Shown here one piece after another: positions 4,004 through 13,794 of a stretch of 22,514 bases of DNA. The stretch is taken from positions 1 through 22,514 of the IMG/VR virus record IMGVR_UViG_3300012147_000093; one strand, written 5' to 3'. The notes beneath the pieces are model-generated. The model searched no databases. It had not been told where the DNA came from and was given only the letters and a program-made list of their open reading frames with translations. Positions within the stretch are counted from its first letter, which is position 1. Each line of letters starts with the position of its first letter. The position numbers and the translations under genes were made by a program. This DNA is from a virus.

Positions 4004-5091
4004 TTATTTATATTTTTATTAAGTATAATACTTTTCTTAATGAAAATCAAGTATAATTTAAACTTTTTATGGTTTTTAATATATTTATATATGACAAAAT
4101 GAAACAATATGAAATGGTTAAAAGATGAGATAGATATATTATTTAATAATTATACTGAAAAGGGTGTTGATTATTGTGCAAACCAATTAAATAAAAAAAG
4201 GCGTAGTGTAATTTATAAGGCGAATAGCTTAGGTTTAAAAACTAAAATAATAATTAAAAAAGAGTCTAGTAAAAAAAATAAAGTAAATTATAACTTATTT
4301 AGTGATGACATGACAAAGGAATCTGTTTATATATTGGGTCTACTTTGGGCCGATGGTCATATTAGGTGCGAATCTAAATCTACTATAATTAATTGTGTAA
4401 TGGATGATTTATTTAATGTTTTAGGTGTTTTTAAAACTACTGGGGATTGGAATATTAGTAACCCAATAAATAAAGATACGGAGTCTAAAAAATATAAAAC
4501 TCAATTACGAATTTCAACTACGACATGGGGGTTATATAATATTTTAGAGGGTTATGATTATTTAAATAAAAGCATTAGTTCACCAGATAAATTATTAGAT
4601 GAAATACCAAACGATTTAAAAAATTATTTTTTTAGAGGTTATTTAGATGGTGATGGTTGTATAAAATTAGGTAAAAAATATGGTGTTGACGTTGTATTTA
4701 CTGGTACAATCAACCAGTCGTGGGATTTTATGGTTAATTTATGTAATCAGTTAAATATTTCGTATTCTATAGATAGACGAAATATCACTTTAGGGGGGTA
4801 TTCACATTTTAGAGTTAATAAAAAATTAGATGTTAAAGTTTTATGTGATTATATTTATACTAATTATAGTAAAGATGGGATTGGGTTCACTAGAAAATAT
4901 GAGAAATATATGGATGTTTTATCATATATTAAAAATAAATCTAAATTATTTTGGTCTACTGGGGATACAAATTTTTTAATTAAAAATTATAGAGCTATAG
5001 GTGGCCCAAAATGTGCAATTAAATTAAATAGAAATATTATATCAATCCATAATAAAGTTAGACAATTAAAAAAACATAATAAAATTGTTTA
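4004..5091. mobile_element. Putative homing element 1 (LAGLIDADG gene plus flanks)
   Basis: This segment separates a truncated GT 5' copy (5089-5274) from a full GT gene of the same family (2492-4003). It contains a LAGLIDADG endonuclease gene and a promoter reading into the GT gene. Boundaries are inferred: one end is the stop of the truncated copy, where homology to the GT breaks off at the conserved VFxHDD motif. The other end lies somewhere within the 5' part (roughly the first 61 codons) of the GT gene, outside the given coordinates. No intron exon-joining structure is seen, because the downstream gene has its own ATG and complete N-terminus. Confidence 0.45.
4022..4050 (-). promoter_or_regulatory. 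Sigma70-like promoter for the GT operon
   Basis: On the minus strand, TTGATT (4045-4050) is separated by 17 bp from TATACT (4022-4027), about 18 bp before the GT ATG at 4003. The spacing is ideal and each hexamer has one or two mismatches to consensus. The surroundings are very AT-rich, so a chance match is possible. It lies between the endonuclease gene and the GT gene, so it would belong to the inserted segment. Confidence 0.5.
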
Positions 5092-5092
5092 A
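4109..5092 (+). CDS. LAGLIDADG homing endonuclease with HTH at both ends
   Basis: A 327-residue protein on the opposite strand to its neighbours. Two LAGLIDADG motifs are visible: 'VYILGLLWADGHIR' (about residues 73-86) and 'FFRGYLDGDGCIKL' (about 175-188). It should therefore be a monomeric two-motif DNA endonuclease; the catalytic acidic residues in WADG and DGDG are kept. A Myb/SANT-like DNA-binding module is found at the N-terminus (tryptophan at 3, 'YCANQLNKKRRSVIYKANSL', about 22-41). A second, similar module is at the C-terminus ('GPKCAIKLNRNIISIHNKV', about 300-318, after 'LFWSTGDTNFLIKNY'). Its TAA overlaps the TAA of the truncated GT copy, so the two genes converge. I chose ATG 4109 because an earlier ATG at 4091 is closed by TGA. 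Confidence 0.9.
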   Translation: MKWLKDEIDILFNNYTEKGVDYCANQLNKKRRSVIYKANSLGLKTKIIIKKESSKKNKVNYNLFSDDMTKESVYILGLLWADGHIRCESKSTIINCVMDDLFNVLGVFKTTGDWNISNPINKDTESKKYKTQLRISTTTWGLYNILEGYDYLNKSISSPDKLLDEIPNDLKNYFFRGYLDGDGCIKLGKKYGVDVVFTGTINQSWDFMVNLCNQLNISYSIDRRNITLGGYSHFRVNKKLDVKVLCDYIYTNYSKDGIGFTRKYEKYMDVLSYIKNKSKLFWSTGDTNFLIKNYRAIGGPKCAIKLNRNIISIHNKVRQLKKHNKIV

Positions 5093-7772: not shown

Positions 7773-8602
7773 CCTCAATTTTTAATTTTAATTTATTAAA
7801 AAAATGGTCATCATTAACCCAATCAAACTCCCAGACAACTATAACTCTATAACCACAACTTATAATATTAGTAAGTTTAGATTTATCATAATACCATATA
7901 TCTTCTGCTGTTTTTTTAATTTGTTTATGATAATAATCACCATTATAAATAATCGGATTACAATGCCAATAATCACCGTTACATTCAATAATTATATTAT
8001 TTTTTTTTTAAATGAATATCACCAAAATATTTAAAATTAGAACCTTTAATTAATATTTCATCATCACACTCATATTTACTATCTAAAAAATTATAAACTG
8101 ATTTAAAAAATCGACTTTTGCGTTTTAATACACCTTTAGTACTACATTTCTCTGAACAATAAACTCTTTTTTCATGTTTAGGTGATATAAATTCATTTTC
8201 ACACGAGGGACAAATTAAAGTTTCTCGTCTTAAATCGTCATGACACTGTACTGAACAAAATTTAGAATTTCCTCTGTATTTGTAAACTTTATAATTAACA
8301 CCACAATTATCACATTTTTTATCAAACCTATTATCTGTTTGGTTAGATTGAAACTTAATTTCTGGGTTATCATTTCGATAACCCCAATAACATTCTTTAG
8401 AACAATATACTTTATTTGACGAACTAATTTTTGTAAACCTCATATTACAATGTAAACAATTAAGACTAACCCGTTTTCTTTGTGGATTTAAATTAGTTTT
8501 TTGACTAATTTTTCTACAATTCAATGAACAATATTTTGCACTATTATACCTACATTTAGGTACATTAAAGTCACTTTTACATATTAAACAAAATTTTTTC
8601 AT
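7735..8602 (-). pseudogene. Vsr-like homing endonuclease, frame broken at poly-A
   Basis: The first frame (ATG 8602 to TAA 7997) gives 201 residues. These hold four treble-clef-like zinc units: pairs such as CLIC/CSLNC, CLHC/CSKEC, CDNC/CSVQC and CPSC/CSEKC. It stops after a run of ten A (8000-8009). Deleting one A restores a continuous frame to TGA at 7735, adding 'NNIIIECNGDYWHCNPI' and 'KTAEDIWYYDKSKL' and ending near 'VVWEFDW'. ECNGDYWHCNP is the signature seen also in the endonuclease at 12777-13665 and typical of the Vsr/EDxHD-type phage homing endonucleases (I-Bth0305I group). As written, the catalytic core is lost. The gene lies between the halves of the split-intein dUTPase, whose site it presumably cuts (inference). 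Confidence 0.8.
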
Positions 8603-10331: not shown

Positions 10332-10356
10332 TTTAATTAAAGATGCAACCTCATTT
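10332..10356. repeat. 25-bp direct repeat, copy 2, over GT stop codon
   Basis: Identical to 9966-9990. It covers the last codon and the TGA stop of the GT gene and the spacer before the unknown gene. The repeat provides the stop codon, so the GT 3' end may have been rewritten by a short template switch or duplication (inference). Confidence 0.8.
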
Positions 10357-12525
10357 AGACTTAATTAGACTTAAATATAAATCACGTCTTTTTTTGGTTA
10401 TTGCATCGATGCTATAAACATCTTTAATATCGTTATTTAATTTTTCACTTAGTTCAGTTATTATTTCTGGGTTTGTTACTAAACGCTTTATATTGCGATA
10501 CCAATCTTTATGATTTTTTCTAGTCTCGACCAATAGTGCATTTCCGTTAACATTAACAACCATATCAGAGCCACCTTTTTTAGGTTTATCATAATAATTT
10601 ATCAAATCTATTTTATATGGGCCAAAATCTTGTGCGATTATCGCTTTTTTGTGAAAGCCAGCTTCAATAACTTTAAGTTGGGACTTAACTTGGTTGAATA
10701 AATTTTCTTCGAGCGGTGCCAGAGATACATCAAAAAGATTGTAATTAGTAGCATAACTACTGATTGGTTTAGTCCATACCCGTCTGTACGCTTCTTTTTC
10801 GATTCCATCAAATTCTTCTTCTGTAAATTTTAATAAATGTTCTTTATATTCTGGGCTAACTATCGCATAGTTATTGGTGAAAATCTTTTCATAATTATAC
10901 CAAACACTTTCTGTTGGTTTAATGGGTCTTGTACTTCTTTCACCAGTTTTTTCATTTAATGTGGTCATGGTTCCCCTTAGGTCAAAACCACAAAGAACAA
11001 ATTGTACCTTATCCAATAAACCATCTGATTTTATCTTACCGACAACACCTTGAAGAATTTCTAAATCCTTTAAATGACTATTACCAATCCACATAGCTTT
11101 TCCATTACGTCTAATATATATAATATGATTCTCAACTTCGACACAATAAACATTACCTTTATATGGTCTAGTATATTGCTCGTCAACTTTAATCAATGGT
11201 GTTGATTTGTTATGTTTACTAATATTCGGGTCTTTACCAAAATTAATAACTAATGAATCATATTGATTGGTGATTACCCTACCTTTTATTTGTGATGTTC
11301 TTTGACCTCTATTTGTTATGGTTGCTGTAACACCAATTTTTAAGGCTAATTCTTGTAAATTATTAGCTAATTCTTTTGAAGAAGTAAAAGCTCTCATTCT
11401 TTCATATTTATTTTTCTCAATATGACCATCACCAATTATAAACCATTTTAAAAATAATTTTAACTGTCTTGAGGATAAATTAAGAATTTCTTCGGGTATG
11501 AATTTTTCTGGTGCATTACCAAATTGTGATAAATATTCCCATAATTGTTTATCAAATACTCTAATTTGTTTTTTATCTTTAGTGTATGTTGGTTTAAAGC
11601 CCATATCGGTTAGTAAATTAAACATATGGTCTAAAGAACCATTATCTTTAAATTGTGCAACACCTACCTGGTGTAGTCCTTTAGATTTAGAAGTCCAACC
11701 TTCGGCTAACCAAAAACCAAAAAACTCCAACCAAGAATCCATTTTAAATTCTTTTTCATAACCATATTTATCAAACATCTGATTAATACGTCTTGAGTTT
11801 TTAGAAATAATGTAATCAATTTCAGAAGATTCAGAAGTTTCTAATTCGAAATTTAAACTAGGTAATGTAAAAATTTCATTTTCCTCACCAACCCAAATAG
11901 CATCTCGTTTAACATGAAAATTTTTACCATGTATTTTTTGTGATTGGATTAATTTTAAATCTAATTTTTTATGTGTTAAATTTTTTACTTCAGAAGCGTA
12001 CATATTATGATTAGGTGTTACCTCAAATTCAATTAACCCATTTTTACCACAATTTAATTCACCATGAAATGGTGTACAAATGTAACCTTTTGGTTTATGA
12101 TATTCCAGTTCATTAGTTTTTGGATTAAGGGTGGCCACATCTTCAGTTCGGTCTAATTTATCAAATCGTTTCCAACCTTTATTTGTTAATATTTCAGTAT
12201 CTGGTGTTACACACGAACCACCAAGCCATCCAATTCTAATTCTATCGGATTCTTGTGGGTTTGGTACGAACTGACTTTCACTTGGGTCGATTGCGTTGGG
12301 TAAAACATGTACGTTTTTATTATACTTTGATATTTCCTTAGCGAATACGGGGGTTGTTGTAATAACGTTTTCGGATAATTTAATATTATTTAATATCATT
12401 TTATCTATACCAGAATTTTTAATCATGGAATAAGCTGGGTGATGTTTCCCTGGTGACCAATAATCATCTAAATCCATTATGGTGATAACATCTAGGGCTT
12501 TAATTCGTTTAAGTGTTGTTTCCAT
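10351..12525 (-). CDS. GT-B glycosyltransferase with intein (main open frame)
   Basis: A 724-residue open frame from ATG 12525; residues 105-482 are an intein, leaving about 346 extein residues. Extein features are 'ITIMDLDDYWSPGKHHPAYS' (about 14-33), 'NVHVLPNAIDPSESQFVP' (about 71-88), 'RIRIGWLGGS' joined after splicing to 'SHLKDLEIL', and 'APLEENLFNQVKSQLKVIEA' (the acidic nucleotide-sugar region). Together these resemble phage and bacterial glycosyltransferases of the family 1/4 type. The same frame continues upstream past this ATG to 12771 with good homology, broken only by a TAA at 12685-12687. ATG 12525 is therefore probably not the native start; it lacks the first Rossmann strands. 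Unless the stop is bypassed, the enzyme is N-terminally truncated. It ends in TGA inside a 25-bp repeat. Confidence 0.83.
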   Translation of the reverse strand: METTLKRIKALDVITIMDLDDYWSPGKHHPAYSMIKNSGIDKMILNNIKLSENVITTTPVFAKEISKYNKNVHVLPNAIDPSESQFVPNPQESDRIRIGWLGGSCVTPDTEILTNKGWKRFDKLDRTEDVATLNPKTNELEYHKPKGYICTPFHGELNCGKNGLIEFEVTPNHNMYASEVKNLTHKKLDLKLIQSQKIHGKNFHVKRDAIWVGEENEIFTLPSLNFELETSESSEIDYIISKNSRRINQMFDKYGYEKEFKMDSWLEFFGFWLAEGWTSKSKGLHQVGVAQFKDNGSLDHMFNLLTDMGFKPTYTKDKKQIRVFDKQLWEYLSQFGNAPEKFIPEEILNLSSRQLKLFLKWFIIGDGHIEKNKYERMRAFTSSKELANNLQELALKIGVTATITNRGQRTSQIKGRVITNQYDSLVINFGKDPNISKHNKSTPLIKVDEQYTRPYKGNVYCVEVENHIIYIRRNGKAMWIGNSHLKDLEILQGVVGKIKSDGLLDKVQFVLCGFDLRGTMTTLNEKTGERSTRPIKPTESVWYNYEKIFTNNYAIVSPEYKEHLLKFTEEEFDGIEKEAYRRVWTKPISSYATNYNLFDVSLAPLEENLFNQVKSQLKVIEAGFHKKAIIAQDFGPYKIDLINYYDKPKKGGSDMVVNVNGNALLVETRKNHKDWYRNIKRLVTNPEIITELSEKLNNDIKDVYSIDAITKKRRDLYLSLIKSK
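11080..12213 (-). mobile_element. Intein (378 aa) in the glycosyltransferase
   Basis: It occupies residues 105-482 of the open frame. Block A is 'CVTPDTEILTNKGWKRF', block B 'EFEVTPNHNMYA' keeps TxxH, and two LAGLIDADG motifs follow: 'LEFFGFWLAEGW' and 'LKLFLKWFIIGDGHIE'. The end reads 'VYCVEVENHIIYIRRNGKA' then MWIGN, with Ser as +1. The penultimate residue is Gly rather than His, as in a known subgroup of phage inteins with the RRNGK motif. The insertion point is GWLGGS/SHL, a conserved nucleotide-sugar-binding loop. It is probably able to splice. The second motif ends in GDG, so nuclease activity is plausible. Confidence 0.92.
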
Positions 12526-12771
12526 TTCCTCAAATGGTCCAAGTGCCCTATGAAAATGAATTATATCATATTTCTTAATGAATGTATCATCTTTTAGATT
12601 TGGGGAATAATCGATATCTACGTGAAATTCATCGGGATAGTTTGTCTCTAGTGAAATATGTGGTTTTGTACTTCTATAGTAGCCTTAACCTACCCCAGTA
12701 CGGTCACTAGGTACTACAAGTACTCTAATTTTACGACCGACTGGGGCATTATTGTTTTTTAATTTTGTCAT
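12526..12771 (-). pseudogene. 5' part of the glycosyltransferase, stopped by TAA at codon 29
   Basis: From ATG 12771 the frame reads 28 codons, including 'VLVVPSDRTGVG', then TAA (12685-12687). It then continues in the same frame as 'GYYRSTKPHISLE' and 'YDIIHFHRALGPF' into the main open frame. GT-B relatives have GxGYYR with one Gly before YY, so six bases containing the stop appear inserted between GGT and TACTAT. The stop sits at the codon where the truncated second copy (13732-13794) also loses homology. The gene starts 6 bp after the endonuclease stop, so both would be on one transcript. Confidence 0.75.
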
Positions 12772-12776
12772 TATAT

Positions 12777-13665
12777 TTAATTATTGTATTTATTTATTAA
12801 ATCGTTTATTATATTTTTATTTTTTTTATAATCGTTTTCCCATATAACCTCACAAGTATAACCATTTTTAATTGCTAAGTCAAGTTTATTAGTATCATAT
12901 TCCCACATTTCTTTAGCTGTCTTATTTTTTTTCTTATGTAAATAATTTTCATCATATTTAATTGGATTACAGTGCCAATAATCACCATTATATTCAATTA
13001 GTAAATTAAATTTTGGAACATAAATATCAAATATTTTTGACCCTATTCTAAAATTGGGTACAACCCTAATCCCAATGTTTTTTAATATTCCTATAATTTC
13101 ATCCTCAGCCTTAGACCTGTTATATCCGCTAATTTCCCCATTAGCTATTCGTTCCTTCATTAAATTACTTAATTTAACCCTAACATCTTCCATTGAACCA
13201 CTAGCCCAACGTTTTTTAGCTAAATTACTGACAATATCTCGATATTTTTTAGTTGACATATGGTCACTAGTTTTAATCCCCATTTTAGATTTAGATATTT
13301 TATCTATTGACTTTTTACTATGACTTTTATTATAAAAAGGGTTGCCGTTACCATGTTGTGATTTTAAACTACAAGATTTACATATTTTTTTTCTTTTTAA
13401 ATTGCGTTTTAAATAATATTTTTTTGAAGCGAATATTGGTATATCTTCAGAACATTCTTGACATTTCCAAGTTGTGTAGAAATGCGTTCCATTAAAACCA
13501 TAATTATCATATTCTTTTATATTTTTTTTTCTTAATTAAATTTTTATCATTTAATGTTTTTAAAACTTGTCGTTTAGTAATACCATTTAACTTTTTAATT
13601 ATAGTTGTAGAACCGAAACCACTTAAATATAAGTCTATTACTTGTTGTTTTTTAATTTCATCCAT
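12777..13665 (-). pseudogene. Vsr-like homing endonuclease, frame broken at poly-A
   Basis: ATG 13665 opens a 52-residue frame with a helix-turn-helix-like start ('QQVIDLYLSGFGSTTIIKKL', 'KRQVLKTLNDKNL') that ends at TGA 13507, after a run of nine A (13522-13530). With eight A the frame would continue without a stop to TAA 12777. This adds a zinc-type stretch (CQEC and CKSC), 'GNGNPFYNKSHSKKSIDKIS' (NUMOD3-like) and the nuclease core 'RSKAEDEIIGIL', 'FDIYVPKFNLLIEYNGDYWH' and 'KTAKEMWEYDTNKLDLAI'. An internal ATG at 13283 gives a 168-residue piece holding only the core. It is the same family as the gene at 7735-8602. As written it lacks the DNA-binding N-terminus in frame. Confidence 0.82.
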
Positions 13666-13683
13666 AGTTTTATATATAAAAGA

Positions 13684-13712
13684 AATATAGTAATTAAAAC
13701 GATAAAAGTCAA
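13684..13712 (-). promoter_or_regulatory. Sigma70-like promoter for the Vsr-like gene
   Basis: Minus strand TTGACT (13707-13712), a 17-bp spacer, and TATATT (13684-13689), about 18 bp before ATG 13665. The -35 box lies inside the downstream arm of the terminator hairpin at 13701-13733, so termination of the upstream unit and start of the next share bases. Confidence 0.5.
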
Positions 13713-13733
13713 CCCTTATGGTTGACTTTTATC
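13701..13733 (-). terminator. Strong hairpin at end of truncated GT copy
   Basis: A perfect 14-bp stem, gataaaagtcaacc (13701-13714) and ggttgacttttatc (13720-13733), with a 5-base loop. On the minus strand the stem is followed by GTTTTAATT, a modest U tract. It overlaps the TGA of the truncated GT copy and would end transcription from the promoter at 13828-13856. Confidence 0.72.
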
Positions 13734-13794
13734 AATAACCCACACCAGTGCGGTCACTAGGTACTACAAGAATTTTTACTTTTTCGTTTTTCAT
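13732..13794 (-). pseudogene. Truncated 5' copy of the intein-containing glycosyltransferase
   Basis: Twenty codons from ATG 13794: a short variable start, then 'ILVVPSDRTGVGY', then TGA. Over 'LVVPSDRTGVG' it matches the GT start at 12771 residue for residue. At DNA level it differs only at silent third positions (CGC/CGT, GGT/GGG, GTG/GTA). Homology stops at GGTTAT, where the terminator hairpin begins. It keeps a good promoter (13828-13856) and follows the terminator of the next operon, so this is the likely native position of the GT gene start. The peptide cannot be a working enzyme. Confidence 0.78.

Follow-up and report, generated by a model that had tools for sequence, protein, structure and literature searches.

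How can a phage glycosyltransferase (GT) gene remain in service when its own replaced 5' end closes with a stop codon? The question is raised by the virus record IMGVR_UViG_3300012147_000093, of which positions 1-22,514 form the stretch analyzed here (the window). On the minus strand of the window, a homing endonuclease gene (HEG) separates a relic of a GT 5' end from a second, recoded copy of that end, which a stop codon divides from the GT body. The locus very probably represents a homing cassette that, in the manner of the yeast WHO elements, replaces one end of its target gene, here the 5' end, and that carries a programmed stop-hop like that of T4 gene 60. The locus is laid out as follows.

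13735..13794, minus strand: relic of the original GT 5' end, MKNEKVKILVVPSDRTGVGY, from ATG 13794 to GGT TAT, then TGA at 13734-13732 (read from the sequence)
13701..13733, minus strand: terminator-like hairpin GATAAAAGTCAACC...GGTTGACTTTTATC, the left end of the cassette (read from the sequence)
12777..13665, minus strand: HEG of the Vsr/NUMOD3 type (sequence and domain profiles; full length in relatives)
12688..12771, minus strand: recoded replacement GT 5' end, MTKLKNNNAPVGRKIRVLVVPSDRTGVG, with its ATG at 12771 and bearing an N-terminal extension
12691..12748, minus strand: mRNA hairpin abutting the take-off codon (minimum free energy, MFE, -31.3 kcal/mol, z = -5.3; covariation)
12688..12690, minus strand: take-off codon GGT (Gly) (sequence)
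12685..12687, minus strand: in-frame stop TAA, codon 29, which is the entire coding gap of 3 nt (sequence)
12682..12684, minus strand: landing codon GGC (Gly), followed by TAC TAT AGA (YYR) (sequence)
10351..12681, minus strand: GT body (GT-B/GT4-like) with a LAGLIDADG intein inside (translation and profile match)
about 11080..12213, minus strand: the intein in the GT body, CVTPDTEI ... MWIGN (translation; LAGLIDADG_3 match)

A preliminary description of the window had listed the relic ATG at 13794, the terminator-like hairpin, the Vsr-like HEG, and the second GT 5' end at 12771, all of which were confirmed in the sequence, and the silent differences between the two GT copies (CGC/CGT, GGT/GGG, and GTG/GTA) are as it claimed. 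It had read the second 5' end straight into the GT body, however, overlooking that codon 29 is TAA (12687-12685). The second copy runs ...GAC CGT ACT GGG GTA GGT TAA GGC TAC TAT AGA, where translation halts after GVG and another Gly codon reopens the body. The proposal that the element restores an open gene was therefore not supported: the new end terminates in a stop, and the silent changes build a strong RNA hairpin. The HEG of the window is itself frame-shifted at a run of nine A residues (13530-13522). The stop and the HEG frameshift recur unchanged in L041 (100% identical over 10.7 kb) and L040 (a single mismatch in 6.6 kb), two further contigs of this virus in IMG/VR; neither lesion is thus an assembly error, and a sequencing error is ruled out as the origin of the stop.

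The same design recurs among phage GT genes. A search with the GT body returned 80 loci, mostly with a continuous gene of the form M..KIKVLVVPSDRTGVG-YFRS, together with six other loci that have a stop. A search with the endonuclease added about 20 further lineages with an endonuclease, a recoded 5' end, a stop, and the body, and further scans raised the numbers of distinct contexts to 32 with a stop and 106 that are continuous. In the 106 uninterrupted relatives, a start like that at 13794 runs directly into the GT body without a second 5' end (for example, L009 MKKLKVLVVPSDRTGVSYFRS), as the preliminary description had expected of empty alleles. The finding that it held would refute its model, two full tandem GT genes in relatives, was not encountered. 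The nearest GT of this family among isolated phages in the phage collection was 35% identical.

Every one of the 32 contexts has a Gly or Ser take-off codon, a stop directly 3' of it, a short gap, a landing codon, and the conserved body. Since it is common to 32 distinct GT contexts, the arrangement is more than chance. The gaps measured 2, 3, 4, 5, 6, or 10 nt and cover all three frames; the gene stays in frame in 24 contexts (gap of 3 nt in 23, and of 6 nt in one). TAA, TGA, and TAG all serve as stops, which together with the several out-of-frame gaps rules out an alternative genetic code. Representative contexts are given below.

Window: take-off GGT, gap TAA, landing GGC
L010: take-off AGC, gap TGAAA, landing AGT
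L031: take-off GGC, gap TGAA, landing GGT
L070: take-off GGC, gap TGAATTTAAA, landing GGA
L085: take-off AGT, gap TG, landing AGC
L091: take-off AGC, gap TGACTA, landing AGC
L096: take-off GGC, gap TGA, landing GGT
L285: take-off GGT, gap TA, landing GGT

The landing codon specified the take-off residue in 31 of the 32 contexts. The exception is L113, with AGT to GGC, where the tRNA-Ser anticodon would still fit GGC via a G.U first pair; this gene retains Ser before the stop, as in the native VSKFRS.

The stop-bearing genes are also set apart by a hairpin. From the ATG through the take-off codon, the 5' end measured 78-84 nt in these genes and mostly 51-57 nt in the continuous ones. The difference corresponds to an N-terminal extension of about nine residues, present in 32 of 32 stop genes, which encodes the 5' arm of the hairpin, while the recoded DRTGV stretch supplies the 3' arm. 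Over the 75 nt before the stop, the MFE was -29.1±2.0 kcal/mol among the 32 stop genes and -8.3±2.9 kcal/mol among 105 continuous genes; the extremes did not overlap (-23.1 and -16.4, respectively), and the hairpin was found in none of the continuous genes. Pairing ceases 1-4 nt short of the 3' end of the take-off codon, and the folds of four individual sequences (the window, L090, L099, and L319) were each better than all 200 shuffles. RNAalifold predicted no structure on a plain MAFFT alignment, because the 5' arms sit in three registers; the arms were therefore anchored by pairing, in the register of the per-sequence folds, for the covariation count. With this anchoring, 85.8% of cells were paired, as opposed to 30-45% when the arms were slid. 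The covariation score was 0.28 versus 0.15 in shuffles (0/500), and two-sided arm changes numbered 30 versus 10.6 in shuffles, with compensating examples such as CCCCAG/CTGGGG, CCCCTG/CAGGGG, and CTCCGG/CCGGAG. As a separate observation, the 3'-arm GGGG in the L093-L110 class could instead pair with a natural downstream ACCCCC, forming a loop that holds the take-off codon and the stop and is perhaps similar to the take-off stem-loop of T4.

The endonuclease, of about 300 residues, has a helix-turn-helix-like N terminus, zinc-finger Cys pairs, a NUMOD3 motif (E 3e-6), and a Vsr/MTES_1575-like nuclease (E 5e-5, under the curated cut-off), and the sequence EYNGDYWHCNP is invariant. A further profile match is to the NUMOD region of I-TevI. 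The same HEG type was found at split-intein junctions, and a scan of bacterial genomes gave two distant matches only. In L112, L117, L119, and L121-L123, a related HEG lies directly upstream of a GT with an ordinary open 5' end, with neither hairpin nor stop; these loci are possibly a forerunner or a reverted form of the cassette.

A scan for the full signature (a stop, a same-residue codon, an open frame, and a strong hairpin) yielded 838 candidates in 4.5 Mb on both strands, which recovered the GT family and a sole other clean case, L319. In L319 and L322, a different GT4-like gene reads MSEQVRKDSEGHVRKKKILLLSDDLR-TAA-CGA..., giving CGA TAA CGA, with a hairpin of -28.9 kcal/mol. Its relatives read MAKKKILLLSDDLRLTSG, that is, MAKKKILLLSDDL-RLTSG, without hairpin or stop. 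L319 and L322 have five differences in 330 nt, all at third codon positions, and no HEG was found directly upstream of the gene. Wider scans (6.2 and 2.6 Mb) added no gene with the signature, and 60 further 20-kb stretches of the host phage genomes contained no third gene. An apparent match in L508 was rejected as a repetitive open gene in another frame. The GT split at 2501-3992 of L566 (Microcystis phage Mel-JY01) was set aside as a different lesion; there, a GT4-like gene is annotated as two pieces, with the frame lost near residue 165 and an unrelated stretch at the break.

We infer the ribosome hop itself, the cleavage site, and the resistance to cleavage. The endonuclease presumably cuts the conserved GT 5' region at the codons for DRTGV-G/S-Y-F-R-S, and repair would copy in the HEG, the recoded GT 5' end, and an insertion of 2-10 nt at the site. 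The insertion would shield the gene from re-cutting while introducing a stop and often a change of frame. Its protective role is suggested by the position of the gap, as has been proposed for T4, and it is as good a candidate for the resistance as the silent changes to which the preliminary description attributed it. Once the ribosome has the take-off codon in its P site and the stop in its A site, the peptidyl-tRNA would detach from the message. Re-formation of the hairpin on the trailing side of the ribosome would draw the mRNA backward, and the detached tRNA would pair again at the matching codon past the stop. Translation would then resume, and the product would be native at this point.

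Structured mRNA can also stimulate readthrough and frameshifting, and the stop could instead be passed by hairpin-stimulated readthrough at the 3-nt gaps and by +1 or -1 frameshifting at the others, with one or more extra residues inserted. This explanation, which we regard as unlikely, fits the 24 in-frame contexts. However, a single mechanism would have to cover gaps of 2, 3, 4, 5, 6, and 10 nt in three frames, and both the duplication of the codon around the stop and the Ser before the stop in L113 would be left unexplained. Stimulators of frameshifting and readthrough usually lie 3' of the site, whereas no difference in structure from controls was found over the 0-60 nt 3' of the stop (p=0.48).

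Several points weigh against a stop-hop. For the 23 contexts with a 3-nt gap, plain readthrough could serve as well. GGY is paired with GGA in six contexts, where one tRNA would need relaxed wobble, and gaps of 2-10 nt are far shorter than the 50 nt of T4. A T4-like take-off stem-loop is not established, as the region from -9 to +41 is more stable than in controls, yet variable. The use of per-sequence folds biases the covariation count toward structure, and the second gene comes from one lineage, represented by two near-identical contigs.

If the HEG insertion and an imprecise repair had killed the GT, the stop-bearing genes would be pseudogenes, as the frame-shifted HEG of the window and the early position of the stop might suggest. 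This reading is already disfavored, and very improbable, given the selection on the body. The median omega was 0.20 for pairs of stop genes and 0.21 for pairs of continuous genes, and in the clade of L070, L073, L076, and L100, all with an out-of-frame 10-nt gap, it was 0.025-0.055 at dS 0.13-0.63. The purifying selection is the same behind the stop, and the body therefore behaves as translated and needed. The same applies to genes whose HEG is truncated or has decayed (L070 and L076), the covarying hairpin is retained, and the stop state outlasts the loss or decay of the HEG in L010 and L192.

A regulatory leader peptide, with reinitiation of the body at an internal codon, is brought to mind by the short open reading frame, hairpin, and stop, which resemble attenuators, but it is highly unlikely. 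No in-frame start codon is conserved, the distance downstream to the first ATG ranging from 9 to at least 200 codons, and the short frame encodes the conserved GT N terminus (KVLVVPSDRTGVG), which is in frame in uninterrupted genes. A self-splicing intron or split intein joining the parts is scarcely credible, even though HEGs of this family occupy such elements and some of those in the loci compared follow split-intein junctions, as no Rfam match was found in the window, L090, L093, L099, or L113, the HEG fills nearly the whole cassette, the gap is just 2-10 nt, no intein sequence occurs at the junction, and the upstream exon relic is missing in most copies.

The stop state is scattered among the GT genes in the manner of a mobile element. 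A tree was built from 142 GT bodies without their first 12 residues; on it, the 32 stop rows required 27 changes of state, compared with 29 under random labels, and 22 of the changes were forced by strongly supported branches. Close pairs of a continuous and a stop gene included L009/L010, L196/L192, and L212/L106. For example, L009 is continuous and L010 has a stop and hairpin but no longer a HEG; the two share 92% identity over 7 kb and differ in the GT 5' end. L106 and L110 share an identical recoded 5' end of 78 nt, while the bodies are mostly 62-85% identical and those of L106 and L110 have different continuous sisters. In the window, L085, L087, and L090, the HEG is preceded by a relic of the old 5' end, and these relics break off no more than a few codons apart; most other copies have no relic. 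The comparison with WHO elements drawn in the preliminary description holds as an analogy, since the empty relatives are continuous and the relics recur in these loci; it fails in that WHO elements replace a 3' end.

To our knowledge, efficient translational bypassing is known largely from one phage gene, T4 gene 60. The bypass of mobA and gene 60 in T4 (PMC2988022) is the closest precedent for the GT cassette, and was overlooked in the earlier statement that no phage example had been described. Gene 60 has matched codons for take-off and landing and a stop after the former, and its 5' stem-loop is believed to close up in the wake of the ribosome, exerting a pull on the mRNA (PMC5009743). The GT genes share the stop 3' of the take-off codon (32 of 32), the matched residue (31 of 32), and the 5' stem-loop, and differ in the length of the gap. 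Additionally, T4 mobA encodes the HNH endonuclease MobA rather than a Vsr/NUMOD3 HEG, gene 60 depends in addition on a take-off stem-loop and a nascent-peptide signal, and, unlike in T4, the hairpin of the GT cassette arrives with the replaced 5' end, in many lineages and two genes. According to a 2016 review, shorter-distance counterparts of the bypass have long been presumed to exist, and synthetic constructs with matched codons flanking a stop permit a "stop-hop" of about 6 nt (PMC5009743). The latter share the stop between matched codons but are laboratory constructs, whereas the GT cases occur in nature, are conserved, and come with a hairpin and a HEG. Mitochondrial byps of Magnusiomyces capitatus are likewise short, mobile-looking inserts bypassed by the ribosome, sometimes with an imperfectly matched landing codon, but they are described as independent of mRNA context (PMC5009743) and have neither a HEG nor a hairpin cassette.

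Yeast WHO elements similarly combine an endonuclease with a diverged replacement gene end and leave a relic of the old end (PMC7282813). They replace the 3' end of FBA1, their nuclease is intein-derived with a zinc finger, and they restore an open frame without recoding (PMC7282813). In contrast, the GT cassette has a NUMOD3 and MTES_1575 nuclease, targets the 5' end, and contains a stop. As it shows neither the nuclease, target end, and restored frame of WHO nor the 50-nt gap of T4, it formally belongs to neither family.

Fractured genes, reportedly described by Dassa in 2009 as carrying split inteins and Vsr-like HEGs, involve the same broad HEG type; in the GT cassette there is no intein at the junction, and the repair would occur by translation, not by protein splicing. 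The literature searches found no description of this GT cassette system. The case for a new class beyond the WHO and gene 60 families is a fair one, and the cassette is likely a previously undescribed class of mobile element (a "hop cassette") that homes among phage GT genes with a portable hairpin, stop, and matched codons and a hop of 5-13 nt. If so, short programmed stop-hops would have their first large natural family, one that occurs in at least two GT genes.

The window contains other features of mobile elements. A GT-A 5' fragment (5274-5089, minus strand; MISVVFCTRES...YDTVVFCH*) ends, relic-like, at an FLHDD site. A LAGLIDADG endonuclease gene lies on the opposite strand (4109-5092, plus strand), and a full GT gene with a diverged 5' end (4003-2492, minus strand) is 42% identical to the fragment over 62 residues; this arrangement (5274-2492) has no stop-hop. 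A dUTPase gene (9304-8639, 8602-7997, and 7778-7461, minus strand) is seemingly divided by a split intein as a fractured gene, with its halves flanking a Cys-rich reading frame that possibly encodes an endonuclease. An IMP dehydrogenase gene (7442-5280, minus strand) has an internal Hint/homing-endonuclease intein. Two 133-bp stretches in endonuclease reading frame regions (7873-8005 and 12882-13014) are 75% identical, which points to related HEGs at two sites of one phage.

Gene callers truncate genes of this design. The 32 natural variants in gaps, codons, stops, and hairpins, together with the second gene, make the role of the 5' hairpin as a "motor" directly testable. The cassette further illustrates a route by which a homing element might enter conserved coding sequence with neither intron nor intein, by replacing the end of the gene and leaving the repair to the ribosome.

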